Of a stretch of 64,000 bases of DNA, positions 1 to 39,970 are shown piece by piece. Numbering within the stretch: position 1 is the first letter of the stretch; the number at the start of each line of letters is the position of its first letter. Made by a program: the position numbers and the translations under genes. The notes under the pieces were generated by a model, which made no database searches, was not told the origin of the DNA, and was given only the letters and a program-made list of their open reading frames with translations. This DNA is from Luteibacter aegosomatissinici (GTDB lineage: Bacteria; Pseudomonadota; Gammaproteobacteria; Xanthomonadales; Rhodanobacteraceae): the NCBI RefSeq assembly GCF_023078495.1, contig NZ_CP095742.1, positions 496,001 to 560,000 of the forward strand, read 5' to 3'.

Positions 1-132
1 TACGCCAATCACGCCGAGGTCGCTGAATTGCTTATGGCGCAGGATGTGGACGCAGGTGCACCGGGCGATACCGCGTACCTGCATCTTCTCCAGCGGGCCC
101 ATCTCCTTGTCTACCCAGGAGACCGTCCATGA
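1..132 (+). CDS. 3' end of an unidentified gene (5' partial)
   Basis: An open frame enters from upstream and runs through the first 132 bases; only its last 43 residues are visible, ending VYPGDRP. Its TGA shares the four bases ATGA with the start of the next gene, which suggests translational coupling. I do not recognise the fragment. It has no cysteine pair or membrane segment and does not resemble either of the two families repeated downstream. It shows that the unusual gene cluster begins outside this window. Confidence 0.6.
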   Translation, partial: YANHAEVAELLMAQDVDAGAPGDTAYLHLLQRAHLLVYPGDRP

Positions 133-1022
133 GCTTGCGACGCACGCTCGCGCGAGGGGTCCTTGCGGCCTTCCTGGCGCTCCCGCAACTCGCGTCGGCC
201 CAGGCCTTCATCCAGCGCGAAATACGCGACGACCCGCGTGGCAGTGTGATCGCCCGCCTACTTTCGGCCTTCAACGCACATGCAGAGCCGATGTCGCGCT
301 GGTACATCGATGCGCTAGGCGGGCGCCACGTCAACACGGGTGAGTACGCGTCCTTCTCCCGCCAAATGGAGACCGCGACGTTCGTGAGCGCCACCTATGC
401 CTACACGGTGGGGGGTGAAACGCGCCACCGGATATATCACGCGCGAAGTGGCCGCAACGAGCCTGATACCGGGTTGCCAGGCGTGCAAGCATTGCGTAGC
501 TACAGGGATTACGTTGATGCCACGCAGCCGGGCGTCGTCGCCTGGGATCAGATGCCGCCGCCGTCCAGCCACGTCACGCATAGCCCCCTTGACGACGGGA
601 GGCACGCGGACGCTCGCCGACGCGATGCCGAACTGAAGATCGCGCGCCGGATCGAGGCGGATATCCGCGCCGGCGTTGTAGCGATGGGCGGGTGGTTGAA
701 TGTGTACGCGAGCCAGGTGCCGTGTGGTTCGTGCGAGCAGGCTCTGCTGGAACTATCACGCCAGGCCGACATAAGTGTGCACATCGCGTACCTGGGTCGT
801 GGCAGTGCCGCCTATAGACGCTTCCAGCGGCAGCGCGAGGCATTCATGACGACGATCCAGGTGGCTGCCAATGGCGGTCAACGGAATACATTGCACATCG
901 AGTCAACCGTCGCGCTGTGTGACCGCGCCTGCCTTGGCTCGGATGATGCCGCTAACGACCAGTCGAATGAAATTGACGATTCCCCCGCCCGGAGCGGTGC
1001 CGAAAGTGCACCAGGGCCATAA
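129..1022 (+). CDS. Exported deaminase-like protein, A family copy 1 (A1)
   Basis: 297 residues beginning with a typical signal peptide (cleavage near ASA-QA, about residue 25), so the product is probably exported. It belongs to a family present four times here. Conserved parts are a beta-hairpin region ending RIYHARSG, a helix with D166-A-E168, a strand, and P-C199-G-S-C202 at the start of the next helix. Glu-168 and Cys-199 are 31 residues apart, as in all four copies. This order matches the zinc-dependent nucleotide/nucleic acid deaminase fold, with Asp where His or Cys is usual; the assignment is inference. About 90 extra C-terminal residues follow the core and contain another Cys pair. 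The ATGA overlap with the upstream gene and the AGGAGA upstream support the start. The substrate is unknown. Confidence 0.75.
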   Translation: MSLRRTLARGVLAAFLALPQLASAQAFIQREIRDDPRGSVIARLLSAFNAHAEPMSRWYIDALGGRHVNTGEYASFSRQMETATFVSATYAYTVGGETRHRIYHARSGRNEPDTGLPGVQALRSYRDYVDATQPGVVAWDQMPPPSSHVTHSPLDDGRHADARRRDAELKIARRIEADIRAGVVAMGGWLNVYASQVPCGSCEQALLELSRQADISVHIAYLGRGSAAYRRFQRQREAFMTTIQVAANGGQRNTLHIESTVALCDRACLGSDDAANDQSNEIDDSPARSGAESAPGP

Positions 1023-1039
1023 AAGGAGTGATACCTGCC

Positions 1040-2218
1040 ATGAGAAACACAGGGGCGTGCGCCATCGCGGCCACGCTATTGACCATGCTGGCTACCGCAC
1101 CGGCCTCCAGCTTCGCGAGTTCGCGGGTGGGGCCACCGGCCGGCGACATCCTCTCAGCCTGGGTGCGGCAGCGCCTTACCGACGTACCGGCGCACGATCA
1201 ACTGGTAGCCGATAACGCCGTTACGCGCGATATGGTGACGCTGCCCGATTCGATCTACACATGGGTCCGCAACCAGCCCCTCGGATTTCGGGGCAGTGTC
1301 TGGACACGTGCCTTCTCGTCGCTGGCAACGAACGGCACACCCATGACACGTGCCGAGGCCACACAGGCCATCGCCTGGGACCTGGGAATGACAAACGGCT
1401 ATCCCGGAATTGTCGATCCGGTCTTCCCGGTACCCGTCATGGGCGATGCCTGGGCGGGCACCCAGCTCGCGAAGGCGGGCGTGACGGAGGAAATTGCGCG
1501 CAAAGCCCTGGCACTGACTGGACACGGTGCATCCGCGGTCGCTGCGAACTATGCCGTGGCCGTGCAGATCCTTGTCGACAAACTGGCGTGCTTCGATGCG
1601 ACGCAATGGCCCGCGCTGGGCTTGCGCAAGGATGTGCTTGAGCGCTTCATGCTCGCGACGAGTGCGGCGGATCTGCGCAACTACGACCTGGTGTACCTCG
1701 TTCGGCTTTTGCAAGGCGAACTTTCCACGTGGCACGCCGGCGAGATCGCCTCCTCAGGCCGTCGCGAATTACCCACGATGCTACGCGTAGCGCGTGTGGC
1801 CGCCGCGTTCCGTGACATGCAAGGATACGTCGCCGATCCCTGCAATGTTGACGGGTCAGCTCGCCTCGGTGTCGCGGCGACCCACCCGGACGACGCAACC
1901 AACGCCATGTGCATGGTCGCTGCAACCGATCGCGCAGTACTCCGTTGGTACCTGCAAAGCCTCGATCGCCAGACCGATCCGGTGCGGGTTAACTTTGTCA
2001 CTGCGGTAGCCTTGCGCATGAGCAGGTTCCTCCGGCCCATGCGGCCGCTCTGGCTCGGTGTGCTCGGTAAGGACCTGCAAAGTTACGGCTCGCACGTGGA
2101 AGTGACCGAAGCCCTCGTCGCCAGCCAGCTGGTGGATGATGAGTCGACCGAGAGTCGCGCGGAGCGCTACAACGAGCGCTTGGCCATTTTTCTCTGCGAT
2201 AAGGATATCGAAGGATGA
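1040..2218 (+). CDS. Exported protein of unknown function, B family copy 1 (B1)
   Basis: 392 residues with a signal peptide (about residues 1-28). The ATG at 1040 is chosen over the GTG at 1028 because AAGGAG (1023-1028) lies 11 bases before it and the signal peptide then starts normally. I do not recognise the family, but copy B2 is related along most of its length. Shared blocks include LRxDVLERFM (about residues 195-205), an AARVAAAFRDM-like helix, and two cysteines (268 and 291) spaced 23 apart as in B2, which could form a disulfide outside the cytoplasm. It is mostly helical in appearance and has no evident catalytic motif. It sits between two A genes and its TGA overlaps the next A start, so a role as partner or inhibitor of the A proteins is plausible but unproven. 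Confidence 0.7.
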   Translation: MRNTGACAIAATLLTMLATAPASSFASSRVGPPAGDILSAWVRQRLTDVPAHDQLVADNAVTRDMVTLPDSIYTWVRNQPLGFRGSVWTRAFSSLATNGTPMTRAEATQAIAWDLGMTNGYPGIVDPVFPVPVMGDAWAGTQLAKAGVTEEIARKALALTGHGASAVAANYAVAVQILVDKLACFDATQWPALGLRKDVLERFMLATSAADLRNYDLVYLVRLLQGELSTWHAGEIASSGRRELPTMLRVARVAAAFRDMQGYVADPCNVDGSARLGVAATHPDDATNAMCMVAATDRAVLRWYLQSLDRQTDPVRVNFVTAVALRMSRFLRPMRPLWLGVLGKDLQSYGSHVEVTEALVASQLVDDESTESRAERYNERLAIFLCDKDIEG

Positions 2219-3012
2219 AGAAGGTGTTGATTATTCTCGCCATGGCAGGGCTTACAGCTGTGCCACCGGTGGAGGCCTACGAGTGGACAGTGAACGCATT
2301 TGAGTCGGATCCGCGCAACGTGGTCATGGCGCCGCTTATCGAGGCTTTCCGTTTCCACGCGGAGCCAGCCGCCGTGTGGTACCTGGAGCAACTGGATGGT
2401 GACCTGGTCAGCCGCAGGCGGTTCGATACGTTCAGTTACGCGATGGCCCGGGCGACCTACGCAGCGTTCGAGTACACCTACCTGCGCGACGGCGAGAGCG
2501 TCACCCGTATCTACTACGCCATGTCCGGACCGGCAAACCCACCCACGGGGCTGGCTACATCACCCAGTCCACTGGTCAATTACATGGTGGAAGATGCCAC
2601 GCGCATCCATGCCCACCTGCTGGCCGACGACAGCACGAGGCTTGTACCAACGCAGCTGGAAGACGAGCCGACGGAGAGCCTGCACCAGCGTGATGCAGAG
2701 CTGAAAGCCGCTCGCTCAATCGAGCGTGATATCCAGCGTGGCATCATTACCCGTGGTGGCACACTGCACGCGTTCATCAGCCAACCCATGTGCGACTCCT
2801 GCCAGCACATCATGCATCAGCTCGGGCGCTACTACGATATCGATATCAACGTGGTGCACCTGGAAGGAAACCTGAGCCAGGCGTACCGGCAGTTCCGGCT
2901 GATGCTTAATCGGTATATGGATACGGTGCTTGTGCGTATTCAACGCCCCGGTCATCCGCATCCCACGCCGCCGCCATCGGCGGGCATGTGCGCGCGCCTT
3001 TTTGTTCGCTAA
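2215..3012 (+). CDS. Exported deaminase-like protein, A family copy 2 (A2)
   Basis: 265 residues with a signal peptide (MKKVLIILAMAGLTAVPPVEA). It carries the shared A features: the RATYAAFEYTY hairpin, RIYYAMSG, D160-A-E162 and C193-D-S-C196, again with 31 residues from Glu to the first Cys. A strand (IDINVVHL) follows the Cys helix, as expected for the deaminase fold. The start ATG overlaps the stop of B1 (ATGA), so A2 is probably translated by ribosomes finishing B1. It is the copy most like A1. The C-terminal tail is proline- and arginine-rich and has no counterpart in the others. Function is inferred from motif and fold pattern only. Confidence 0.75.
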   Translation: MKKVLIILAMAGLTAVPPVEAYEWTVNAFESDPRNVVMAPLIEAFRFHAEPAAVWYLEQLDGDLVSRRRFDTFSYAMARATYAAFEYTYLRDGESVTRIYYAMSGPANPPTGLATSPSPLVNYMVEDATRIHAHLLADDSTRLVPTQLEDEPTESLHQRDAELKAARSIERDIQRGIITRGGTLHAFISQPMCDSCQHIMHQLGRYYDIDINVVHLEGNLSQAYRQFRLMLNRYMDTVLVRIQRPGHPHPTPPPSAGMCARLFVR

Positions 3013-3055
3013 CCGTCATGACGCCGATGTGCATATGACCACTAAAGGGCGATGT

Positions 3056-3811
3056 ATGACGCGTGTCTCCCATGCGTTTTCGCATGCTTTCGGCGTGCTT
3101 CTCACTACAAGCCCGGTGCACGCCGTCACTGTCACGGATGTCCTTGACGACAGTGGCGGCGCGACCGTAGCCATGCTTCGCGAATCCTATGACATCCATG
3201 TCGAGGCGGCAGGGCGGATGCTTCAGGGCGCTGCGGGTGCGAACCTTGCCACCCCCGAGTTGAACCGCCTGGCCCACCGCTGGATCAGGGCGACGGTGGC
3301 TCGCTTCGAGTACACGTATCACGCAGGCGGGCGCGAGCGTACGAGGGTGTATCACGCGATGTCGGGGCGTGAAGCCGATGAGATCCTCGGCCTGCCCGTA
3401 AGTGAGGCTTCGGGCCAGTACGTGGGCATAGCGGCGAGCCGCCGGGCATCGATCGAAGCGGCAGCCGGTAGCCAACTCGCCGTGCCGGAGCCTGGGCATC
3501 GGCTGGACGCAGAGGTAAAGGGGTTTCGTACGCTTGAGCGTGATCTGGTGGAGGGTAAGGTTCCCGCCCGTGGCCGTCTCCGCATCTGGATCAGTCAGCC
3601 GATCTGCTCGTCCTGCCGGGCCATGGCGTCGTCTTTCGAGACATCGTACGTGATCGACACGACGATTTTTCAGTGGCGGCGGTCCGTGGGCCCCGATGAC
3701 GTAAGCCTGTTTCGCAAGCTTGACCAGCATCGACGGCTCGGAAGTTCGACATTGAGGGCGTGGCGCCGCGCGGGTTCCGGGGTAACGGGTAGGACAGGAT
3801 GTCTCCCCTAG
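3056..3811 (+). CDS. Exported deaminase-like protein, A family copy 3 (A3)
   Basis: 251 residues. The frame is open further upstream, but the ATG at 3056 has AAAGGG six bases before it and gives a short signal peptide ending near VHA. The shared motifs are VARFEYTYHAGG, RVYHAMSG, D151-A-E153 and C184-S-S-C187, with the constant 31-residue spacing. The strand after the Cys helix (IDTTIFQW) is shorter than in A1 and A2, and the last 50 residues are arginine-rich and diverged. It is separated from A2 by 43 bases and begins the second A-B-A triplet. A hairpin spans its stop codon. Confidence 0.7.
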   Translation: MTRVSHAFSHAFGVLLTTSPVHAVTVTDVLDDSGGATVAMLRESYDIHVEAAGRMLQGAAGANLATPELNRLAHRWIRATVARFEYTYHAGGRERTRVYHAMSGREADEILGLPVSEASGQYVGIAASRRASIEAAAGSQLAVPEPGHRLDAEVKGFRTLERDLVEGKVPARGRLRIWISQPICSSCRAMASSFETSYVIDTTIFQWRRSVGPDDVSLFRKLDQHRRLGSSTLRAWRRAGSGVTGRTGCLP

Positions 3812-3822
3812 GCGAGTAGGGG
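3805..3822. promoter_or_regulatory. Hairpin spanning the A3 stop codon
   Basis: CCCCTA (3805-3810) pairs with TAGGGG (3817-3822) around a six-base loop. The stop TAG lies at 3809-3811. There is no T-run, so I do not call it a terminator. Confidence 0.35.
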
Positions 3823-3825
3823 TTC

Positions 3826-3848
3826 GCGGATTCACCTACGGAATCCGC
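3826..3848. promoter_or_regulatory. Inverted repeat between A3 and B2
   Basis: GCGGATTC (3826-3833) and GAATCCGC (3841-3848) are exact reverse complements with seven bases between. It could be an operator or a weak terminator; CTTTTCC follows about 15 bases later. Confidence 0.4.
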
Positions 3849-3897
3849 TTACGGTCCCTTCAGTCTTTTCCTACAGAGCGCGTCGCCTCAGCTGTGC

Positions 3898-3940
3898 TTC
3901 CATAGGCATGGGCTGTGCCATGCAGCCCATACCTATGGAA
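3898..3940. promoter_or_regulatory. Long hairpin in the B2 leader
   Basis: Two 18-base arms (3898-3915 and 3923-3940) are complementary except for one C-A mismatch, with a seven-base loop TGCCATG. The hairpin ends 18 bases before the B2 start and five bases before its AAGGAT ribosome site. A structure this long directly before translation start suggests attenuation or translational control, or processing of the long mRNA. It lacks the T-run of an intrinsic terminator. Confidence 0.55.
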
Positions 3941-3958
3941 AGACAAGGATTGTTAACC

Positions 3959-5065
3959 ATGACCATATACGCACGAAGGCTATGCCTGGCCGTGTGCCTG
4001 GGGCCGGCGGCCGCAATGGCCGATTCAACCGTGACAGATGATCTTCCTGAGCTCCTCGTGCAACTTTCCGTCCAGAAGGAAGGCGATACGCCGAAGATCC
4101 TGGAGGACGACTTCGCACGCAATCTGTTGTTGATTAATCCGGCGTCACCCTATAGCGACAGGCGTGACGCTGATGACATCGTCGGCGATGCTGGGTGGCA
4201 AGGCGTGCCAGCGATGGCGGCCGTCAGTGATCACGAAATTGTGCTGGCTTACGCGCGGAGGATGGGATTAACCAAAGCTCGCCCCGGCATAGACGTCCCT
4301 GTTCATCCGGGTTACGCGCGATACGATGCGTTCATTGGCGCCCAGGCGACGAAGGCGGCCATTGACGAAGACATTTTCCGGCAGGCGCTGGAATACGCAG
4401 GCTATAGTTCCGCGGCGATCGTCGCAACATATGCCGTGGGCGCGCAGGTACTTCGCGACCAGCTCCGGACGGTGCCGGCCTCGAAGCACGAGGGGCTAAA
4501 CCTGCGGCCTGACGTGCTGGAACGCTTCATGGCGCTGACGGCTTCCGATGTGATTGATGATTACGACGGTGAATACCTGCAGAGGCTATACAACAGTCAG
4601 GTTCTCGACTTCAGACCCGGCATATCGCCATCCATGGCCGTACCCTACATTCCCGCACCGTTTCGAGCGGCACGGATCGCGGCTGCCTATCACGATATGT
4701 CCGGATACTTCGGTGGATTTCCCTGCCAGAAGGATGGACGACTCAACCCCGCCTTCGCTGGTACGGGCGAGGAAGGCGATACACGTGCCCTTTGCTTCGT
4801 GGATGCAAACGATCAGGACGTCCACGCGTGGTATGTCGGCCAGCTACAAAACCAACTCGATGGGGTGAAGCGTTATCCGGAGAGCACCAAGGAATCGGCA
4901 CTTTCGAAGCTGCTGAGACCTATCGCCATCATTGGCGAAGTGGCCGGGATTGCGTCTTTCATCAACTTCGCGACGGGTATCCGTGCGTGGGTCAAGGGGA
5001 TGATCCCCTCGAAGCCCGTACGGAACATGTACGGCAACATCGGCCAGAAGGTGTGCAAGCTATGA
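3959..5065 (+). CDS. Exported protein of unknown function, B family copy 2 (B2)
   Basis: 368 residues. The ATG at 3959 follows AAGGAT by eight bases and gives a signal peptide cut near AMA-DS (about residue 21); upstream in-frame ATGs lie inside the leader hairpin. It resembles B1 in blocks such as LRPDVLERFMALT, a YAVGAQVLRDQL-like helix and AARIAAAYHDMSGY, and in C256 and C279, which are 23 residues apart exactly as in B1. The C-terminal 70 residues differ from B1 and include a hydrophobic stretch (IIGEVAGIASFINFATGI) that could insert in a membrane. No catalytic motif is visible. Its stop overlaps the A4 start. Confidence 0.7.
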   Translation: MTIYARRLCLAVCLGPAAAMADSTVTDDLPELLVQLSVQKEGDTPKILEDDFARNLLLINPASPYSDRRDADDIVGDAGWQGVPAMAAVSDHEIVLAYARRMGLTKARPGIDVPVHPGYARYDAFIGAQATKAAIDEDIFRQALEYAGYSSAAIVATYAVGAQVLRDQLRTVPASKHEGLNLRPDVLERFMALTASDVIDDYDGEYLQRLYNSQVLDFRPGISPSMAVPYIPAPFRAARIAAAYHDMSGYFGGFPCQKDGRLNPAFAGTGEEGDTRALCFVDANDQDVHAWYVGQLQNQLDGVKRYPESTKESALSKLLRPIAIIGEVAGIASFINFATGIRAWVKGMIPSKPVRNMYGNIGQKVCKL

Positions 5066-5838
5066 GCCAGTTTCCCCCCAGGGTCCTCATGCAGCGCGCG
5101 AGCGTCATTGTGCTGGCGCTTGCGGCTCAGGCAGCACACGCGGAGCTCGATGTGCAGGCAGTGCCCACCGACGAACCAGCGACCGTCGTCGTGAATACCC
5201 TCGCCAGCTCCGTTGACGCGGAAATCGCCCTATTCACTGATAGACGTGATTTGCTGAAGGGCACGGACAATGAACTGAGTTCACAAAAGACCAGGGACTA
5301 TATCGCCAAGGGACGAAGGGCGACCTACGCCACGGCCGAGTACCGAACCTTAGAAGCGGGTAAGTCCGTGACCTACACCATTTTTGCCCGGTCGGGTGCG
5401 GACGATGCGCCATGGGACCCGAAGAACTATGTCGGGTCCGATCGGAAAATCATCGCCCGGGCCTCACACGGCGAGTTTATCCATCAGGTTCATCACTCGC
5501 CAGGGCTAGACAAGGCGGTCGTCGATGCGGAACTCAAGGTGGCGCGAACCATTGACTATCTTAAGACGACGGCAAAGGTCCCCAGCGCCGGTGACGTTTA
5601 CATGTGGGTGAGTCAGGCTCCGTGCGCGTCCTGTAATACCATTCTGAAGCAGCTCGATACCCGCGTCATACCCGGTAATCGAATCTTGGTCCGCTATCTT
5701 CCAGCTAATGCCAAACGTGACCTCGGCGCTCCTTCGGCCCAATTCAACCTGAAGCGAAACCGTGCCTTGGAGGCCATAGGGAAGCCTGGGTCGAGCCTCG
5801 AACGCCATCCGTCACCCGGCGGCCGTTCCTGTCTCTAA
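5062..5838 (+). CDS. Exported deaminase-like protein, A family copy 4 (A4)
   Basis: 258 residues with a signal peptide cut near AHA-EL (about residue 27). It is the most diverged A copy but keeps the RATYATAEY hairpin, FARSG, D155-A-E157 and P-C188-A-S-C191, with 31 residues between Glu and Cys as in the others. A strand (RILVRYL) follows the Cys helix. The ATG overlaps the B2 stop as ATGA, mirroring the B1/A2 junction. It is the last gene of the cluster; the next gene, rluF, converges on it with a 16-base gap and no obvious terminator. Confidence 0.7.
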   Translation: MSQFPPRVLMQRASVIVLALAAQAAHAELDVQAVPTDEPATVVVNTLASSVDAEIALFTDRRDLLKGTDNELSSQKTRDYIAKGRRATYATAEYRTLEAGKSVTYTIFARSGADDAPWDPKNYVGSDRKIIARASHGEFIHQVHHSPGLDKAVVDAELKVARTIDYLKTTAKVPSAGDVYMWVSQAPCASCNTILKQLDTRVIPGNRILVRYLPANAKRDLGAPSAQFNLKRNRALEAIGKPGSSLERHPSPGGRSCL

Positions 5839-9177: not shown

Positions 9178-10458
9178 ATGCACGCCAAGGCCGAAACCGC
9201 CCCCCTTTCCCCCGAGATGCGCCGCTATGCCGAGCTGGACCAGCGCCTGCTGGCCGCGGTGCGCACGATCCGGATCCTTCCCACGGTGTCCTGGCCGGCA
9301 TCGGTGGAGGAGCGCCTTATCGAGGAGTTCGGCGCAGGTCGGCTCTCGTTACCCGATATTCGCTACCACCGGCCCGAGTTGGGCGAGACCCGGCGCGAGC
9401 TTGAGGCGATTGAAGCCGAGGCCTGCGAGGACCACCCGATTGCCGAGTACCTGCGGCGGACCGCCGAATCGTGGCGGATCGCCACCCAGATGCTCGATGC
9501 TGCGGGCACCGACGGCGTTACCGAGGCCTCCGTGCTGCTTTATGGCCGTCCGGGGGATGCCATTCCCGGTAGCAGCCGGAGCAATCTGGATGCCGCCGCG
9601 TACTTCGTGAACCTGGCCGATGAGCTGGGCGCCGATCTCGAAACGGAGGATGCCGCTGGGCACATTAGTGCCGAAGAACTCCGTCGCGACATGACGGCGA
9701 AGCTCGATGCATTCTTTGCCCCGGGCACCATCGCCGTTGAAGTGGACCCGGAACTCACCGCCAAGGCGGCCGCCGGTGCGACCCGCATCCGCCTGCGTGG
9801 CGGCGCCCGTTTCACCGAGTACGACCGCCACCAGTTGCTCGCACACGAAGCCTTCGTTCACTCGCTGACGGCGTTGAATGGCCGCGAACAGCCCGTGCTG
9901 GCGTCGCTGGCGCGCACCTCGCCGCGCGTTACAGCCACTCAGGAAGGCCTGGCCGTCTTCGCCGAGCTCATGTCGGGCGCCATCGATATCTCTCGCCTGA
10001 AGCGCATCAGCCTGCGCATCCTGGCGATCGACATGGCCATGAATGGCGCGGATTTCGTCGAGGTGTTCCGCTATTTCCGTGTGTGCGGACAGAATGTTCC
10101 CGATAGCTTCCATTCGGCCCAGCGCGTGTTCCGTGGCGTACCGCTGACCGGCGGCTCCGCGTTCGCCAAGGACAACGTGTACCTGACCGGTTTGCTGGCG
10201 GTGCACACGTTCTTCCGTTGGGCCCTCCGCCAGCGCCGCCTGGACCTGTTGCGCAACCTGTTTGCCGGCAAGCTCGCCCTGCACGATGTGATGTCACTGG
10301 AAGCCCATTTCCAGAACGGTGATATCGCCTCGCCCCGCTACCTGCCGCCGTGGATGCAGCACGTGCACGGCCTTGCGGGAAAGCTGGCATTTTCCCTGTT
10401 CGTCAACCACATACACATGGCGGGGGTCGAGGCCGAGGAAATTTCCCTCGGCCTGTAA
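9178..10458 (+). CDS. QEGLA-motif protein (DUF1704, MATCAP-like metallopeptidase fold)
   Basis: 426 residues. The motif TQEGLAVFAEL (about residue 260) is the name-giving feature of the family annotated as 'flavohemoglobin expression-modulating QEGLA motif protein'. HEAFVH (HExxxH, about residue 222) together with the QEGLA Glu is the pattern of zinc ligands in the DUF1704/MATCAP tyrosine carboxypeptidase-like enzymes, so peptidase activity is possible. The bacterial substrate is unknown. It starts 73 bases after the reductase and could share its transcript. Confidence 0.82.
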   Translation: MHAKAETAPLSPEMRRYAELDQRLLAAVRTIRILPTVSWPASVEERLIEEFGAGRLSLPDIRYHRPELGETRRELEAIEAEACEDHPIAEYLRRTAESWRIATQMLDAAGTDGVTEASVLLYGRPGDAIPGSSRSNLDAAAYFVNLADELGADLETEDAAGHISAEELRRDMTAKLDAFFAPGTIAVEVDPELTAKAAAGATRIRLRGGARFTEYDRHQLLAHEAFVHSLTALNGREQPVLASLARTSPRVTATQEGLAVFAELMSGAIDISRLKRISLRILAIDMAMNGADFVEVFRYFRVCGQNVPDSFHSAQRVFRGVPLTGGSAFAKDNVYLTGLLAVHTFFRWALRQRRLDLLRNLFAGKLALHDVMSLEAHFQNGDIASPRYLPPWMQHVHGLAGKLAFSLFVNHIHMAGVEAEEISLGL

Positions 10459-10463
10459 ACGCG

Positions 10464-12074
10464 TCAGCGAATACGGAACGGCGCCGGCGATTCGGCGAAG
10501 AACGGGCGCCAGTCACACGACAGGCGCAGGCGAGCATGCTGTGTCGCCGTACCGGCCGGTAGTGGAATGGCCGCGCTGCCTGTATTCGCCACGTCGCGCG
10601 CTACGGCTTGCCAGGTCGATCCGTCATCCAGGGAAAGCGATGCCTCCAGGAAGTGGCAGGAAATCGGCGCCAGCGACGTTCCGGCAGGATCCCAGCGAAT
10701 GCCAAGCGGCTGGCCTGCGCTGCCGTCCGGTACGGGTTCCATGGCAAAGGCGCGGCCGGTATCTACCACCTGCACGCGTGCGTCGTCGGTCGCCACGGTG
10801 GCCGTTTCGCCGCCGTTGTCGCGCACTGTCAGCCGGAACGACAGCCAGCGTGATCCCTGGGGAAGGCCGGATGTGAATACCCGGCGAGCCGTCGGCCCAG
10901 GGGCCGCCGCGCGGAAGCCATGCTGGCCGTCGAGGTCATCCCAGGCGTAGGAGAGGCGACGCCCCGCGATGCCGGGCTCCACGGTCGCATCGAGCCAGAA
11001 AGGCGTGCGCGCCGGAATCACCGGCGGATCCGCGAGCGATTCCGGATCGATCCACGGCGCGATCGCGTTGATCATGTACTTCCTGGCGCACGCGCCCCCG
11101 CGCGAGGCCAGCCAGTTGCGAACCCGGGCGATGCTCACCCCATCGAACGCAAGGCAGTGCCAACAACGCGTCTCACGAAACGGGGCTCCCAGTTGATTAC
11201 CGAGCACCAGGAGGAAGTTGGCAAAGGCGGCATCCGGATCCGCACCGCCACTCCACGCCGCCGCCTTATGCGTGGCGAGATAGTCCGCGTCCATGGCATC
11301 GCTGCAGCTGGTTCCGGTCTCGGTTTCGCCCCCGTCGAGCCCCAGCAATGCATGGCCGAGGTCGTAGCCGCTGGCGGGGAGGCGTCGGGTGATGAGGTTG
11401 GCCGCTGCAGAACGCGGCTCACCCTCGCGCAGGGGATCACGGCGGTGGTCCGCCACCATGAGGCGATCGTCGTGCGCCGCCAGGGTGAGGTGCACGCCAA
11501 GGTCGTTCTCGAGCACTTCGTTCGCCCGGTTAACCAGGTGAGCCGCCGCGCCAAGCGCCGCCTCCCGCGTGCCGCCGTTCGCGGCAGTGAACGCGCTGCC
11601 GGCGGCCAGCGCGAGGCGGAATTCGTACCTGACGTTACCGGCAGCCGAAGGGGCCAAGGTGTCCATGGTCGCTGGCTGGGGAAGCGTGAGCAATGCCGGT
11701 GCAGCGGACGGTGGCGGCGAAAACGCTGGCAATGGTGACGCGGCCGTTGGCTGCCATTGGCCGTCGGCTTCGCGCAGGCTCATCCGTGCCTGGCCACCTG
11801 CGTAGTCCAGCCGCACGCTGCGCCCTGCGGTATCGCTGCCGCGGAAGCTGCGCATCGTGGGGTAACGGCGCAGCAGGTCGCGCGGCAGCGTGCGCGAATC
11901 CCACAGCGTGAATGCCGAGGTCGCGCCATCGGGCAAAGGGAGCGAAATCACGGTACGAGCCTTGCCATCGGCAGCCAGTTCAAAAAGCCTGGCGCGAGCA
12001 TCGCCAAGCGAATCGGCGGCCGCGGCACACGACCACGGAAGGAGCAGGAGAAAAGCGTGGACAGGGCGTCGCAT
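10464..12074 (-). CDS. Exported reprolysin-like protein with a lost zinc motif
   Basis: 536 residues with a signal peptide (to about residue 20). The propeptide-like part (TLWDSRTLPRDLLRRYPTM, RSFRGSD) and a region with NRANEVLENDLGVHLTL resemble bacterial reprolysin-like M12 metallopeptidases. Where those have HExGHQxGA, this protein reads L289-V-L-G-N293-Q-L-G-A, so both His ligands and the catalytic Glu are gone while the flanking Gly, Gln and Gly-Ala remain. It is therefore probably not an active protease. The C-terminal 200 residues look like beta-sandwich domains as in many secreted proteases. It faces the QEGLA gene with a five-base gap between stops. Confidence 0.65.
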   Translation of the reverse strand: MRRPVHAFLLLLPWSCAAAADSLGDARARLFELAADGKARTVISLPLPDGATSAFTLWDSRTLPRDLLRRYPTMRSFRGSDTAGRSVRLDYAGGQARMSLREADGQWQPTAASPLPAFSPPPSAAPALLTLPQPATMDTLAPSAAGNVRYEFRLALAAGSAFTAANGGTREAALGAAAHLVNRANEVLENDLGVHLTLAAHDDRLMVADHRRDPLREGEPRSAAANLITRRLPASGYDLGHALLGLDGGETETGTSCSDAMDADYLATHKAAAWSGGADPDAAFANFLLVLGNQLGAPFRETRCWHCLAFDGVSIARVRNWLASRGGACARKYMINAIAPWIDPESLADPPVIPARTPFWLDATVEPGIAGRRLSYAWDDLDGQHGFRAAAPGPTARRVFTSGLPQGSRWLSFRLTVRDNGGETATVATDDARVQVVDTGRAFAMEPVPDGSAGQPLGIRWDPAGTSLAPISCHFLEASLSLDDGSTWQAVARDVANTGSAAIPLPAGTATQHARLRLSCDWRPFFAESPAPFRIR

Positions 12075-12292
12075 GGGGGCCTCGTGGCGTCTGTGGGAGG
12101 CCATTCAGCGTACGCACCCGCACGGTTCCGCAATGCAGGTATGCAGCCCGATGATGCGTAGGGGTTGCGTATCACAGCTTGTCGCAAAGCAACACACCGC
12201 ACCGCATGGCGGGCGCTGGCGCGGTGTTAACATCGGGGTCTGCCGCGCGGCCGGGCCGCGCCCCCTGCTACCTATCAGTCCCACAGGATCCC

Positions 12293-18146: not shown

Positions 18147-20423
18147 TCAACGCCATTGGTCGGCATCGTCGAGTACGAGGCGGACCATGCGCCAGGGATT
18201 AAACCCAAACGTTACCTCGTGTCGTCCCGCTGGCACACAGATCGCGCGCAACAGCCCATTTGCGCGATAGTGGCTTGCTGGAACGCTGTCGACCTCGGCC
18301 TGCCAACCCGGGAAGTCGAGGTCTGACAGGACGATCCACGCGGCACGATGCGCTTCAACCTGCAAGGTCACGCGGACGTTTGTCGTATGCCCATTCTTCA
18401 CGGTGGCTGAGCCGCCCGCGCAGTTCTCGACCGCCTGACGCAGGTTCGCGACTTCTCCCTGTGATCGGGGTGTCAGGAAGACGGTGTTGGCAAGGTTCGC
18501 GCTGGCGAACGCCTCGGGCGAAGGATTTTGCCGCACGTCCAGGATCGTCGCGTTCCTAGGACTGAATGCGCGAGGCAAAGCGTCGACCTCCAGGACCTGA
18601 GAATGTGCATCGGCGTGGATCTGTCGCAACGGCGGCGATGTCCACGCCGAAATGTCCGCCGCCGCCGGCGCAACGATGTAGCGGACCCCCAGGAGCCGGT
18701 TGAGGTTGCTCGTCGGGTCAGGGTTATAGGGGGAGGTCGGCCGGGGCCCGTTTCCGTCCGCGTAGGGCCCGTACCATCGGTCCCACATGGCCCATCGGAG
18801 CGGACCGTATCCTTGCGTTGCGGGGATGGCCCTGAGGATGACGTTGTTCTTCCAGTTGGCTGGCAGATCTGCGGCCTCTATGCGAGGGCCGAGCGCCAAA
18901 CGCGCGGGTCCGTCGGATCCACCCGATGCCAAAGCGGCGGCGACCGCTCCCGCCGCACCGTTCTTCATGAATTTGGCTGTCCGATCGCCACGTTGATTGA
19001 ATTCACCGTTCAGGCTGAACGCACGGTAGTCGGCCACGATAACGAAAGCCACGGCCCACAAGACCCCTTGCTGGCTTATCTGGCGCCGAAGGAGGATGGC
19101 CGCTGAGAGCGAGACGATGGGGGCCACGATGGTTGCTGCCTGCCAGCCTTCTAGCTCGCCACGCATCGTCAGGCTAGCCAGGAGTAGCCACGCAGTCGTG
19201 CCGGTCAGGGTGGCTACACGGACGCTGCGGGAGCTCAGGTCAACGTGACTTGATGCGATGCCAACGGCTAGCGCCACCGCGAGGTTCAGAAGATAGCCCG
19301 CATCGGACGGCCGCCGGAACTGCTTTACGCCGGGGAGTGCATAGTAAAGAGCCTCATAAAATCCCGTGTGTCTTCCGAGCATGAACAGCATCGAGGTGAT
19401 GGCGACGGCGAGAAAGAAGAGGAGGTAGCCCCGGTGCGATGACTCTCTCCACGCCTTCTTTGCCCCTAGCAATGAAAGAAGTAAAGGGAGCGCGCCAATC
19501 CAGTAAAAGGTCTCGATAGCATCGGCCGGCCCCGCGTAGCTTCCCCGAAGATTGTGTAGTGCGTTCGGTAACAGGAACGTCTGAAGGGTCGACCACGTGA
19601 TACTCAACTCGGTCGCTGCGCCCAATGTCAGTTCTGGCCTGTTCGATATGGCGACGAAGGCGTAGGTGAACAGAAGTTGTGGCGCAGCCAGCAGGAGCGC
19701 TACGACAGCGGCGAATGCAAGACCACCCAGATACGTCTCTCGCGCCCGTCTGCACCAGGTGGGCCATCGCCGTATGGCAAGTGCGGCCGCGAAGCCGGCG
19801 AGCATGATGCCGGTGAGGTACGTGAGTTGCACTGGAACGACCAGGAGCATGGCGGCAACAGCACCTAGGGCCAGCGCACGAGGCCAGGTGGGTGCGTTTG
19901 CCAGGCGAAGGACGCAGAACATCGCCAGCGGGGCAAGGCTATAAACGATGAGGATGGGGACATGCTGGATGCGCGAAGCGGCTACGCCGCCTGCCATGAA
20001 AACGGCCGTGCCTACTAATGTCCCGACATCGTTCACCCTCAACTGCCGTAGCAAGGCCAGCATGCTCAGGCCGCCGACATAGAGATGAAGCAGGGCGCCG
20101 ATGACGAACCACGACATGGTGGGCTCAGATCGCAGCAGCATCCAGCCCGTGAGGAGTGGCGAAAACAGCATCGCCTGGGGATCGGCGATCTGTGGGTAAC
20201 CGGCGAAGATATACGGGTTCCACCATGGCGCTACACCCTCACGAAGGGAGTGAGCATTGAAGTATGCCATGGGGAAGAATTCGAATAGCGCGTCCCCCGG
20301 CAGAACGCGTATGCCAAGAAGAAGGGGGAGGTGAAGAGCGCCCCAAAGTACCGCTACCACGAGAGCCATGCGGCGGAAGGAAAGGGTTGCCACGCTGTCG
20401 CTCGTGATCTGGCGAAGGAGCAA
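18147..20423 (-). CDS. YfhO-like polytopic membrane protein
   Basis: 758 residues with about 11-13 membrane segments in the first 470 residues and a soluble C-terminal part. The N-terminal loop GDALFEFFPMAYFNAHSLREG...PWWNPYIFAGYPQIADPQ matches the YfhO family, which has a GT-C glycosyltransferase-like fold; in Gram-positives YfhO helps to glycosylate teichoic acids. In this Gram-negative host the acceptor is unknown. The extracytoplasmic tail contains PGWQAEVDSVPASHYRANGLLRA, usual for the family. Base composition is somewhat lower in GC than the neighbours. Confidence 0.8.
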   Translation of the reverse strand: MLLRQITSDSVATLSFRRMALVVAVLWGALHLPLLLGIRVLPGDALFEFFPMAYFNAHSLREGVAPWWNPYIFAGYPQIADPQAMLFSPLLTGWMLLRSEPTMSWFVIGALLHLYVGGLSMLALLRQLRVNDVGTLVGTAVFMAGGVAASRIQHVPILIVYSLAPLAMFCVLRLANAPTWPRALALGAVAAMLLVVPVQLTYLTGIMLAGFAAALAIRRWPTWCRRARETYLGGLAFAAVVALLLAAPQLLFTYAFVAISNRPELTLGAATELSITWSTLQTFLLPNALHNLRGSYAGPADAIETFYWIGALPLLLSLLGAKKAWRESSHRGYLLFFLAVAITSMLFMLGRHTGFYEALYYALPGVKQFRRPSDAGYLLNLAVALAVGIASSHVDLSSRSVRVATLTGTTAWLLLASLTMRGELEGWQAATIVAPIVSLSAAILLRRQISQQGVLWAVAFVIVADYRAFSLNGEFNQRGDRTAKFMKNGAAGAVAAALASGGSDGPARLALGPRIEAADLPANWKNNVILRAIPATQGYGPLRWAMWDRWYGPYADGNGPRPTSPYNPDPTSNLNRLLGVRYIVAPAAADISAWTSPPLRQIHADAHSQVLEVDALPRAFSPRNATILDVRQNPSPEAFASANLANTVFLTPRSQGEVANLRQAVENCAGGSATVKNGHTTNVRVTLQVEAHRAAWIVLSDLDFPGWQAEVDSVPASHYRANGLLRAICVPAGRHEVTFGFNPWRMVRLVLDDADQWR

Positions 20424-36611: not shown

Positions 36612-36742
36612 CCTGTGCATGCGCAGGCATCGTAATTTGCTAGTGCTGATCACTCTGACGCCAGGCAGTGTCTGTGGGGAGCCCGGATGGGGAGCAGGGA
36701 GCTCGGCGGAGATCCTTCACTTCGCCCAAGGGAGTTCATTGC

Positions 36743-39700
36743 ATGTCTTGCAGGTTTTCAGCATGGCTCGCGTTCGCGAGCCTGACGGCAGGTTGCGCCC
36801 TGTCGTTACCCATTGCCGCGGCCGATTTCAGTACGTCTGTGAAATCCGCCGCCAACCCGGCGACACCGCGGCTCACGTCCAACATAAGCGGTGCGAGCAC
36901 CGCGGCGATCGCCGGCTCGCGCCCACGCCAGGCACTTGCAGCGAAAGACGCAGGCGCCGTGCCGTCCAGCCAGGCGATCAGCAACATCACGCTGGTGCTC
37001 AAGCGCGACGATGACCACGAGAAGGCCTTCCGCGCCCTGCTGGCGCGCCAGACGAATCCCGCCTCGCCCGACTTCCACCAATGGCTGACCGGCAAGCAGA
37101 TCGGTGAACGCTTCGGGCCATCCACGCAGGATGTCCAGGCGGTGCGCCAGTGGTTGCAGGGGCAGGGTCTCACCGTCAATGGCGTATCGCAGGATCGCAT
37201 GCGTGTGTCCGTGTCGGGCAACGCAGCCGCCGTGGCGAAGGCTTTTGCTACCGAGATCCATGCCTATCAGGCCGACGGCAAGCAGCATTTCGCCAATGCG
37301 ACGGATGCGCACGTCCCTTCGGCGCTGACGCCGATCGTCCAGGGCGTGTCGTTGCACAACTTCTTCCCCGTGCCGCAGCACACGGCCATCGCCAAGGCAC
37401 GCTTTGACACGAAACATGGCAAGTGGAGCACGGCCGCGGCCGACAACCCGGACTTCACCGTGCCGCCGGGCACCACCGATCCGAACACCACCTATGACAT
37501 GGTGCCGGCCGACTTTAACACCGTGTACAACGTGAAGCCGCTCTGGCAGCGCGATACACCGGTGCGCGGCGCGGGCCAGAGCATCGTGGTGCTCGAACGC
37601 ACCAACGTGCAGCCGGACGATGTAGCGCATTTCCGTGCGGCATTCCTGCCCAACGATGCGCGCGGTACGTTCTCCATCCTCCATCCCAGCGGCGCGGAGG
37701 GCGCTCCGTGCGCGGATCCGGGTCTGAACGGCGATGAGGGCGAAGCCGCGCTCGATGCCGAGTGGGCCGGTGCCGCTGCGCCAGATGCGGACATCGTCCT
37801 GGCATCGTGTGCCGACTCGGGTGCCACCTTCGGTCCGTTCATGGCCGCCGCACGCCTGCTGGATACGACGACGGGCCTGCCGCCGCCGATCTGGAGCCTC
37901 AGCTACGGCGCGTGTGAGAGCGCGGATGCCTCAGACGCCTACCTCGCCGACATCCTCTGGTCGTCCGCCGCGGCGCAGGGCGTGACCGTGTATGTCTCGT
38001 CGGGTGATGGCGGATCCACCCAGTGTGACCAGGGTGCGTTGTTCTGGTCGCAGAACGGTGCCGCGATCAACGGCCTTGCCTCATCCACCTCCGCCGTAGC
38101 GATTGGTGGCACCGACTTCAACGATCGCGGCAAGCTGTCGACGTACTGGACCTCGACCAACCTGCCGAAGTACCAGTCGGCGGTAACCTATATCCCGGAG
38201 ATGACCTGGAACAACAGCTGCGCCAGCAGCCATCTGTACACCTTGCTGGGTTACCAGGACGGCATCACCGCCTGTAACGACGACCAGGGCCGTGGTTCGG
38301 ACTTCCTGCAGGTCGGTGGCGGCGGCGGTGGCCCCAGCACGTTGTTCGCCCAGCCGGAAGCGCAGATCGGCATCCACGGTTCCACCAACCACACCTCGCG
38401 CACCATCCCGGATATCTCGCTGTTCTCGGCCAATGGCATCTATGGCCACGCGCTGGTCTTCTGCATGTCGGATACCGACAACGGCGGGACGGCGTGCGAC
38501 TTCCGCGATCCGGATTCGGTGTTCGCCAATTCGGCCGGCGGTACCTCGTTCGCCGCGCCGGCCATGGCGGGGGTGCAGGCGCTGCTCAACCAGGTGAATG
38601 GCGACCGCGTCGGTAACCCGCTGCCGGCGTTCTACGGTATCGCCGCACGCCAGTTCGGCACGGTCGGTTCGCCGAACAATACAGTGCTCACCGCGTGCAA
38701 TTCGAGCAACGGCAACACCATTGCTTCCACCTGCGTGTTCAACAACGTGACCGAAGGCGACATCGTGCAGCCGTGCGCGGCGGGCTCGGTGAACTGCGAT
38801 AGCGGCACCAAGCTCAATAACGTCGTGGGCATCGTGGAAGGTGGCGACACCACCACGCACACGCTGGTGCCGGCGTGGAAGACCAACGTGGGCTACAGCA
38901 TGGCCACGGGCCTGGGCTCGATCAACGCGGCCAACCTGGCCGACGCGGTGAAGGCGTGGAGTGCCCCGGCCAAGCGGAATTATGCCGTGCCGGCGGATTT
39001 CCTTTCGTTGAATAACCTGTTCACCAACGATGGCTACAGCGACTTTGCCTATGTCGATGGCGGCATGCTGCACTCGGTATCGATGAAGGGCGCCGTCAGC
39101 CTGTACGACCAGGCGCAGGCGATCGATCCGTCGCTAACCGTGGTGGGTTACGGTGACGTCGTGCCGGGACTGGACGCTTTGTCATTGAAGTCCGGCGAAC
39201 TTCTGTTGATGGATGCGAACCACAAGCTCAATGTGTGGGTCTCGACCGGTACCGGTGGTTACTTCACCTTCGTGGTGAACCGCGATATCCCGGCGGGCTG
39301 GAAACTGCTGGGCGTGGGCGTCCACGATGCCAGTGGCGTGCAGAAGCTGGTGTGGTTCGATACCGCCACGTCGGAAATCGTCTGGTGGGCCCTGGACCTG
39401 GATCCGGTCACCCAGAACGACATCATCGTGACCGGCCAGTCGTGGCCGAAGCAGGGCATCGCCGGTGGCGTGCCGGTGCTGGCCGATGTGGATGGCGACG
39501 GCTACACGGATATCGTGTGGACCCGCAACAGCTCCAACGGTACCGCCGTGTGGGTGGATGATCGTCGCGATGGCTACGTGGCCCATGCGTTGCCGGATCA
39601 CCCGGCGGGCGCGGTGCTGCAGGGCGTGGGTGATGTGGATGGTAACGGCACCACCGACCTGCTCTGGACCAATGCCGCGGGGACGCAGCTCACGTGGTGG

Positions 39701-39970
39701 ACCATAAACGGCTTCGCGGTCACCGCGCAGAAGAGCCAGGCCATTCCGGCAGGTGCAACGCTGGCAGGCATTGGTGATTACGACGGCGATGGCATCGCCG
39801 ACATCCTGTGGCGTGGTGCGAACAACCGCCTCGTGGATTGGCAGGGCACGGGGAGCGGCTTCGCCGCTTCGAACGTGGCCGACGCGTTTGGTACGCCGTT
39901 GGCGTTGACCACCACGGCGACTGTGCCGGCTAACCGGTTCCAGGGGAGCCGGCGGTTGGCGACGAAGTAA
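36743..39970 (+). CDS. Exported S53 (sedolisin/kumamolisin) protease with FG-GAP repeats
   Basis: 1075 residues. A signal peptide (to about residue 28) is followed by a pro-kumamolisin activation domain (about 70-215; FRALLARQTNPASPDFHQWL) and an S53 catalytic domain. The catalytic residues can be placed: E334 and D338 in GEAALDAEW, oxyanion D422 in SSGDGGS, and S602 in GGTSFAAPAMAG. From about 770 on there are FG-GAP/VCBS-type repeats (DVDGDGYTDIVW, DVDGNGTTDLLW, DYDGDGIADILW) that bind calcium and may attach the enzyme to surfaces. It should self-process and act outside the cell at acid pH. AAGGGAG lies before the ATG; a terminator follows. Confidence 0.92.
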   Translation: MSCRFSAWLAFASLTAGCALSLPIAAADFSTSVKSAANPATPRLTSNISGASTAAIAGSRPRQALAAKDAGAVPSSQAISNITLVLKRDDDHEKAFRALLARQTNPASPDFHQWLTGKQIGERFGPSTQDVQAVRQWLQGQGLTVNGVSQDRMRVSVSGNAAAVAKAFATEIHAYQADGKQHFANATDAHVPSALTPIVQGVSLHNFFPVPQHTAIAKARFDTKHGKWSTAAADNPDFTVPPGTTDPNTTYDMVPADFNTVYNVKPLWQRDTPVRGAGQSIVVLERTNVQPDDVAHFRAAFLPNDARGTFSILHPSGAEGAPCADPGLNGDEGEAALDAEWAGAAAPDADIVLASCADSGATFGPFMAAARLLDTTTGLPPPIWSLSYGACESADASDAYLADILWSSAAAQGVTVYVSSGDGGSTQCDQGALFWSQNGAAINGLASSTSAVAIGGTDFNDRGKLSTYWTSTNLPKYQSAVTYIPEMTWNNSCASSHLYTLLGYQDGITACNDDQGRGSDFLQVGGGGGGPSTLFAQPEAQIGIHGSTNHTSRTIPDISLFSANGIYGHALVFCMSDTDNGGTACDFRDPDSVFANSAGGTSFAAPAMAGVQALLNQVNGDRVGNPLPAFYGIAARQFGTVGSPNNTVLTACNSSNGNTIASTCVFNNVTEGDIVQPCAAGSVNCDSGTKLNNVVGIVEGGDTTTHTLVPAWKTNVGYSMATGLGSINAANLADAVKAWSAPAKRNYAVPADFLSLNNLFTNDGYSDFAYVDGGMLHSVSMKGAVSLYDQAQAIDPSLTVVGYGDVVPGLDALSLKSGELLLMDANHKLNVWVSTGTGGYFTFVVNRDIPAGWKLLGVGVHDASGVQKLVWFDTATSEIVWWALDLDPVTQNDIIVTGQSWPKQGIAGGVPVLADVDGDGYTDIVWTRNSSNGTAVWVDDRRDGYVAHALPDHPAGAVLQGVGDVDGNGTTDLLWTNAAGTQLTWWTINGFAVTAQKSQAIPAGATLAGIGDYDGDGIADILWRGANNRLVDWQGTGSGFAASNVADAFGTPLALTTTATVPANRFQGSRRLATK

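Follow-up and report, generated by a model that had tools for sequence, protein, structure and literature searches.

The window analysed here, a 64,000-nucleotide stretch of the 4.99-Mb single-contig genome of Luteibacter aegosomatissinici, opens with an array of genes for two families of putatively exported proteins, A and B, in the order B0-A1-B1-A2-A3-B2-A4. Sequence profiles support the placement of A in the BURPS668_1122 (PF14424) clade of toxin deaminases. B is encoded directly upstream of nearly every A throughout the genus, and both proteins usually carry a lone cysteine near the C-terminus. With somewhat less than even confidence, we favour reading A and B as paired chains of a disulfide-linked secreted deaminase toxin.

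An earlier note on this DNA had recognised in the A proteins the layout of zinc-dependent deaminases with a constant distance between the DAE glutamate and the first CxxC cysteine, and the spacing was confirmed, while sequence-profile tests with controls supported the deaminase reading. Among 70 A members from the genus, 38 matched PF14424 at E<=0.01 (best 7.3e-9), the other matches being, apart from one stray DUF, to further deaminase families, namely Pput2613 (5), SNAD4 (5), APOBEC1 (1) and Bd3614 (1); a fragmentary member (L043_6688) was excluded from this 70-row alignment and the profile scans and is included wherever counts are given out of 71. Scanned singly, A1, A2 and A4 of the window matched PF14424 below the Pfam curated cut-off, and A3 matched no Pfam deaminase model in this single-protein scan. 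When the 23 genomes of the genus were searched with PF14424, matches were obtained in 20, four array loci scoring above the curated cut-off, and none of 14 control genomes responded. The same search of a class sample yielded no match at E<=1e-6 in 274 genomes, an uninformative result since its controls were silent too. Alignment of the A profile with that of eight PF14424 domains from outside the array (hhalign) gave a probability of 96.3 and an E-value of 1.9e-9 and brought the DxE and CxSC motifs into register, while the control comparisons of B with the PF14424 alignment and of A with B reached probabilities of 0.1 and 0.3. This comparison set consisted of eight domains, four of seven plasmid matches (Klebsiella, Serratia, Moraxella and Bergeyella) having been left out, and the same D, E, C and C residues were invariant in all eight. 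Against cytidine/tRNA-type deaminases of its own genome, A aligned weakly (probability 41, E 2.8e-4) with DAE on HAE and CxxC on PCxxC. By sequence, the best PDB match of A was an APOBEC3G-type chain at a non-significant E of 0.15, and a PADLOC match of one of the 70 members (0.0047) was disregarded. The deaminase families were reportedly defined in a 2011 paper, and from membership of this clade we infer a deaminase three-dimensional fold for A.

The glutamate and the first CxxC cysteine occupy residues 168/199, 162/193, 153/184 and 157/188 of A1 to A4, 31 residues apart in every copy. Genus-wide, this distance was 31 in 66 of the 71 A proteins, 33 in three and 35 in one, the remaining member being a fragment without the DxE part. 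The pattern D.E.{30}C..C was present in 65/71 members, compared with an expectation of 7e-5 per composition-shuffled sequence, and in none of the 1217 other open reading frames (ORFs) of 150 aa or more encoded at the same loci. The 31-residue spacing is the A family's own, the other PF14424 domains having 30 (five of eight) or else 29, 35 or 43. In the 70-member alignment only E, G, C and C formed invariant columns, and the catalytic residues were retained almost without exception (D in 69/70, E in 70/70, both cysteines in 71/71). N-termini resembling signal peptides were found in 65/71 A and 57/67 B by a simple heuristic, which is not SignalP and, by choosing the best start codon, is generous.

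Almost every B gene, 66 of the 67 found, lies directly upstream of an A gene. With the start codons chosen, the B stop and A start overlap by four bases in 34 of these 66 pairs and by one base in nine, and in 18 the A start follows within nine bases; B and A may thus be translationally coupled. The identity matrices of the partners correlated with r 0.83, while 500 re-pairings within loci gave a mean of 0.18 and a maximum of 0.375. As this co-divergence shows, each module moves and diverges as a whole; by itself it is not proof of contact between A and B. Mean pairwise identity among paired genes was 31% for B and 25% for A, and no opposite charge of partners was detected (correlation -0.18, both being mostly acidic). 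Between the close strains G107 and G117, dN/dS ranged from 0.16 to 0.22 for three A genes and from 0.16 to 0.31 for three B genes, compared with 0.04 to 0.13 for four neighbours, so that in this one strain pair A and B are under purifying selection that is looser than on the genes around them. Between the window and genome G103, identities were 96-98% for rluB and the ABC genes, 86% for hrpB and 81% for gspD, the best A pair reaching 55% and the best B pair 63%. Separately, at L056:12128-14260 (minus strand) an A frame continues into the next B without a stop or an obvious intervening signal peptide, a possible natural A-B fusion.

The 67 B proteins share eight invariant residues, two of which are cysteines, and searches of Pfam, NCBIfam and the PDB linked them to no known family beyond presumed chance matches (best PDB E 1). 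At E<=0.01 the only Pfam models that they matched were DUF6197 (two proteins, best E 9.6e-5) and VMAP-M4 (B1 of the window, E 0.009). The former was dismissed as chance because the DUF6197 model also matches weakly, and never over its cut-off, at scattered sites in the genus and in three of 14 control genomes; the latter was likewise taken as chance.

Cysteines at the ends of the chains are the second feature of the family. Downstream of CxxC, exactly one cysteine was present in 67 of the 71 A proteins, two in three and none in one; the A part of the continuous A-B frame of one strain was cut by hand before this count. The last cysteine is the final residue in 20 members, is among the last seven residues in 62 members and is among the last 16 in 68, the latter compared with 11.6 expected by shuffling. 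None of the eight other PF14424 domains has a cysteine after CxxC. Similarly, 61/67 B proteins end in a cysteine followed by two to six residues (3.9 expected in the last seven), and 53 of the 67 contain three cysteines, two of them the invariant ones. The tail cysteines of A and B would accordingly be unpaired within their own chains. As each chain usually has one free cysteine beyond the zinc-binding or invariant pairs, a disulfide between A and B is the simplest reading.

Within the window, all four A genes are present where the earlier note had placed them. They are not adjacent as it had described, since they alternate with B genes and only A2 and A3 stand side by side. All genes of the array are on the plus strand. 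The array begins upstream of the window, whose positions 1..132 hold the 3' end of the first partner gene, B0; this gene matches the B profile, and its open frame (L062:4918-6132) lies mostly outside. The B0 stop overlaps the ATG of A1 (129..1022), which encodes a putative exported deaminase-like protein of 297 aa (PF14424 E 1.6e-3) with DxE..CxxC at 624-734; its tail cysteines are residues 264 and 268, and the B0 tail is without the usual terminal cysteine. B1, a predicted exported partner of about 392 aa, occupies 1040..2218 from the ATG at 1040 (a GTG at 1028 being possible) and has its tail cysteine codon at 2195-2197. A2 (2215..3012, 265 aa, PF14424 E 1.3e-5) shares four bases of its start with the B1 stop, and its DxE..CxxC and tail cysteine codon are at 2692-2802 and 2989-2991. 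A3 (3056..3811, 251 aa), a further exported deaminase-like protein by prediction, has no B of its own and resembles A2 with an E-value of 1.9e-18; its DxE..CxxC spans 3506-3616 and its tail cysteine codon is 3800-3802. The second complete partner, B2 (3959..5065, 368 aa), likewise predicted to be exported, is read from the ATG at 3959 (an ATG at 3908 being possible) and has its tail cysteine codon at 5054-5056. Its stop shares four bases with the start of A4 (5062..5838, 258 aa, PF14424 E 9.9e-5), another putative exported deaminase-like protein with DxE..CxxC at 5524-5634 and a tail cysteine codon at 5830-5832. The widest intergenic gap in the window's array measures 147 bases, into which a third gene of usual size would not fit. 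The best match of A3 in L052 (12024-12770, 55% identical) is likewise an orphan behind a B-A module, and the A-A arrangement is thus common to two genomes.

The modules lie between hrpB and an rluB-like pseudouridine synthase gene in all 23 genomes of the genus, and the secretin gene gspD follows beyond hrpB in 22, the contig of the 23rd ending inside hrpB. In the window genome, Pfam searches confirmed type II secretion genes E, F, G, K, L and the secretin, as well as the HrpB helicase, the pseudouridine synthase and the ABC genes; in the other genomes, gspD was the type II gene looked for. Number and direction of the modules differ among genomes. Loci L039, L045 and L052 carry an extra B-A pair between gspD and hrpB, directly behind gspD and in the same direction, and three modules (L044, L050 and L055) are located elsewhere. 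A gene of ~1.4 kb that stands between modules in many genomes was considered as a third component; it is well conserved among the 14 genomes compared, its translation in L060 reads by eye as a DEAD-box RNA helicase, and it was taken as a housekeeping neighbour. In genome G109, an A-gene remnant consisting of the C-terminal part alone (L043:6691-6978) lies beside the pseudouridine synthase gene (rluB).

In the two-chain reading, A would be a zinc-dependent deaminase of the BURPS668_1122 toxin clade, its activity being predicted. Both proteins, with Sec-type signal peptides according to the heuristic, would fold in the periplasm, where the two invariant cysteines of B probably close on each other and the lone C-terminal cysteines, to judge by their conservation, would link the chains. 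The pair would probably exit via the adjacent type II secretion system, and B may then bind or carry A into a nearby cell, where the reducing environment of the cytosol would release A to deaminate nucleic acid. Two-chain toxins are known whose interchain disulfide is opened by the reducing cytosol of the target. Such a mechanism suits a zinc deaminase whose nucleic-acid substrate would be intracellular, as well as the lack of an immunity gene. The array presumably expands by duplication of whole B-A modules, which then diverge fast, as would be expected of an arsenal directed at diverse targets, which may plausibly be fungi or other microbes. The broader proposal, that the modules represent an unrecognised class of secreted two-chain toxin in which a nucleic-acid deaminase is disulfide-joined at its C-terminus to a co-evolving carrier chain and no cytosolic immunity gene is present, is doubtful; the absence of such a gene would mean that these toxins target cells of other kinds, such as those of fungi. 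Luteibacter is associated with soil and plants, and some members live inside fungal hyphae. Table 1 of PMC5361626 gives Luteibacter sp. 9135 and 9143 as endohyphal bacteria, and a passage in PMC9040847 credits strain 9143 with type I, II, IV and VI secretion systems.

Several observations weigh against the two-chain toxin. The proximity of gspD is no proof of type II export, co-divergence is also expected if modules simply duplicate as units, and no recognisable binding or translocation domain was found in B with Pfam, NCBIfam or the PDB. Five A genes are not preceded by a B: one belongs to a couple in A-B order, one is an orphan fragment, and three, including A3 of the window, are intact copies. 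A homodimer of A or of B would explain the lone cysteines, too. Furthermore, nine of the 67 B proteins have a fourth cysteine, and six, including B0 of the window, lack the terminal one. Among the six pairs concerned, both chains lack it in one, A has two tail cysteines in two (B0-A1 of the window and one pair in G103), and A has the ordinary single tail cysteine in the other three (two with a short B and one further); conversely, one A with two tail cysteines stands beside an ordinary B. Exceptions in one partner are associated with exceptions in the other (3/6 vs 1/60, Fisher p 0.0017), a figure that comes from few cases and ignores relatedness, and they lean weakly toward a disulfide between A and B. 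The L052 module orthologous to B0-A1 of the window (A 55% and B 44% identical) has one tail cysteine per chain.

The strongest competitor of the carrier role is that B is a co-exported inhibitor, or an immunity or escort protein, that is made first and holds A harmless in the periplasm, the array being an arsenal of antibacterial toxin-inhibitor pairs. Antitoxins are often encoded upstream with overlapping start and stop codons, and the gene order of the modules fits an inhibitor as well as a carrier. Co-divergence of A and B is in keeping with this role too, and the window's array has no room for another candidate immunity gene. However, a protein conferring immunity to a nucleic-acid deaminase would be expected in the cytosol, yet 57/67 B have signal-peptide-like N-termini by the heuristic, the partners are not opposite in charge, and B is more conserved than A by mean pairwise identity. 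Moreover, none of the 67 B matched a Pfam immunity family at E<=0.01, Pfam presumably including Imm2 and Imm3 models; an adjacent member of the known immunity families (Imm2, Imm3 and SUKH) was thus not seen among the B proteins. These three are the families named for the BURPS668_1122 clade in the part of PMC3482391 cited here. The inhibitor is a possible explanation that we would nonetheless not expect to hold, and the predicted export of B, with no sign of a cytosolic protector, places the carrier modestly ahead of it.

It is improbable that A is an extracellular scavenger that feeds the cell by deaminating nucleic acid or free nucleosides and has B as its dedicated folding partner. The proximity of genes for exported enzymes to a type II secretion operon would suit this role, but the closest relatives of A are toxin domains, and a mean identity of 25% among paired copies, one to five matches per genome and fast divergence are atypical of a metabolic enzyme. 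It is highly implausible that the array is a reservoir of degenerating toxin cassettes that no longer function, since against the one A fragment beside rluB in G109 stand preserved catalytic residues and dN/dS well below 1.

Known toxin deaminases are mostly domains of larger toxins. It has been proposed that eukaryotic editing enzymes derive from those of bacteria, which are also under development as base editors. Among the eight collected PF14424 domains, five are C-terminal in long frames (643 aa or more; the frames seen in full measure 694, 3645 and 3486 aa) and the other three come from short frames (162-243 aa), of which two have no signal-peptide-like start. A differs from these domains in being a predicted exported stand-alone protein with a tail cysteine and an exported partner. 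The polymorphic-toxin plan of a constant N-terminus with swapped C-termini was not seen, all A-profile members having one catalytic domain, in searches that did not extend to A-like N-termini with other C-termini. Two genomes of the genus also hold PF14424 domains above the cut-off at the ends of a 694-aa frame (L093:4450-6534) and a 3645-aa frame (L094:3885-14822), on contigs other than that of the array.

The earlier note had regarded a set of small exported copies paired with another exported family as undescribed. The arrangement itself holds across the genus, and the novelty is reduced by partial precedents in the short PF14424 frames (3/8), MafA/MafB and SitB/SitA. In the cited part of PMC3482391, MafB of Neisseria is likewise a genus-restricted exported toxin with an exported partner, MafA, encoded upstream. 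There, MafA is lipid-anchored and without polymorphism and MafB joins a constant N-terminal domain to varied C-terminal toxin domains, whereas B is polymorphic and co-diverges with A, which has one catalytic domain. The myxobacterial SitA proteins are also exported polymorphic toxins, whose delivery is raised by the accessory sitB immediately upstream, and are described in the excerpted text of PMC8546572 as lipoproteins with nuclease domains, transferred by outer-membrane exchange and accompanied by a SitI immunity gene in the operon. Unlike SitA, the A proteins of the window have no N-terminal cysteine, and no third gene follows. DddA and SsdA, interbacterial DNA deaminase toxins of the same superfamily, belong to other subfamilies (SCP1.201-like and DYW-like) and have specific immunity proteins, DddA being delivered via type VI secretion, according to the portion of PMC7901873 cited. 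The SNADs, AID/APOBEC-like deaminases secreted by animals, also have extra C-terminal cysteines, and their SNAD4 model is the one weakly matched by five of the 70 A; their three-cysteine cluster is thought to bond within the protein, and a partner is not mentioned in the cited part of PMC11004436. Among the matches listed in a search of the open PMC literature on Luteibacter, deaminases and secreted toxins, the array was not announced, which is weak evidence of absence. As predicted from sequence, the 71 small exported cysteine-tailed deaminase-like proteins would offer many new candidate enzymes that must tolerate an oxidising compartment. Their nearly obligate partner, of no known family, offers a possibly new fold and poses the question of carrier or inhibitor.

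With A2 as query, A was detected in 23/23 genomes of the genus at one to five matches per genome and in none of the 210 other genomes of the family searched (26 genera). In the whole-genome profile searches, scoring was limited to the 6-12 candidates per genome that ranked highest in a permissive first screen. In the order sample, the A profile found 20 of 398 genomes, all in the genus, plus one outlier in another family with a 34-residue match (E 9e-4), and the B profile found 14/299, all within the genus. In phylum samples, B matched one of 200 genomes, the window's own, and A matched three of 200: the window's own, one in which a 3486-aa frame contains a PF14424 domain, and one with a frame bearing HAE and PCxxC that was read as TadA/CDA-like. 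A query of 11 close B proteins, which finds close relatives only, returned ten loci in named records, all ten from Luteibacter (L083-L092); these are ten of the genomes above and were counted once. No relative was found in a single-protein scan of genome contigs or in searches of plasmids, phages and viral contigs. In the samples searched, matches from beyond the genus were thus either weak or to plain deaminases, and since these samples are sparse, the modules may occur elsewhere.

Four further ORFs of the window are of possible interest. A 758-aa open frame at 18147-20423 (minus strand) had no Pfam match at 1e-5. Putative secreted proteases are encoded at 10464-12104 (minus strand; reprolysin-like, E 3.5e-6) and at 36668-39970 (plus strand; pro-kumamolisin/subtilase with FG-GAP repeats). 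The ORF at 9178-10458 (plus strand) strongly matched the Pfam family MATCAP (tyrosine carboxypeptidase, E 2.3e-110), which is named for a microtubule-associated enzyme.

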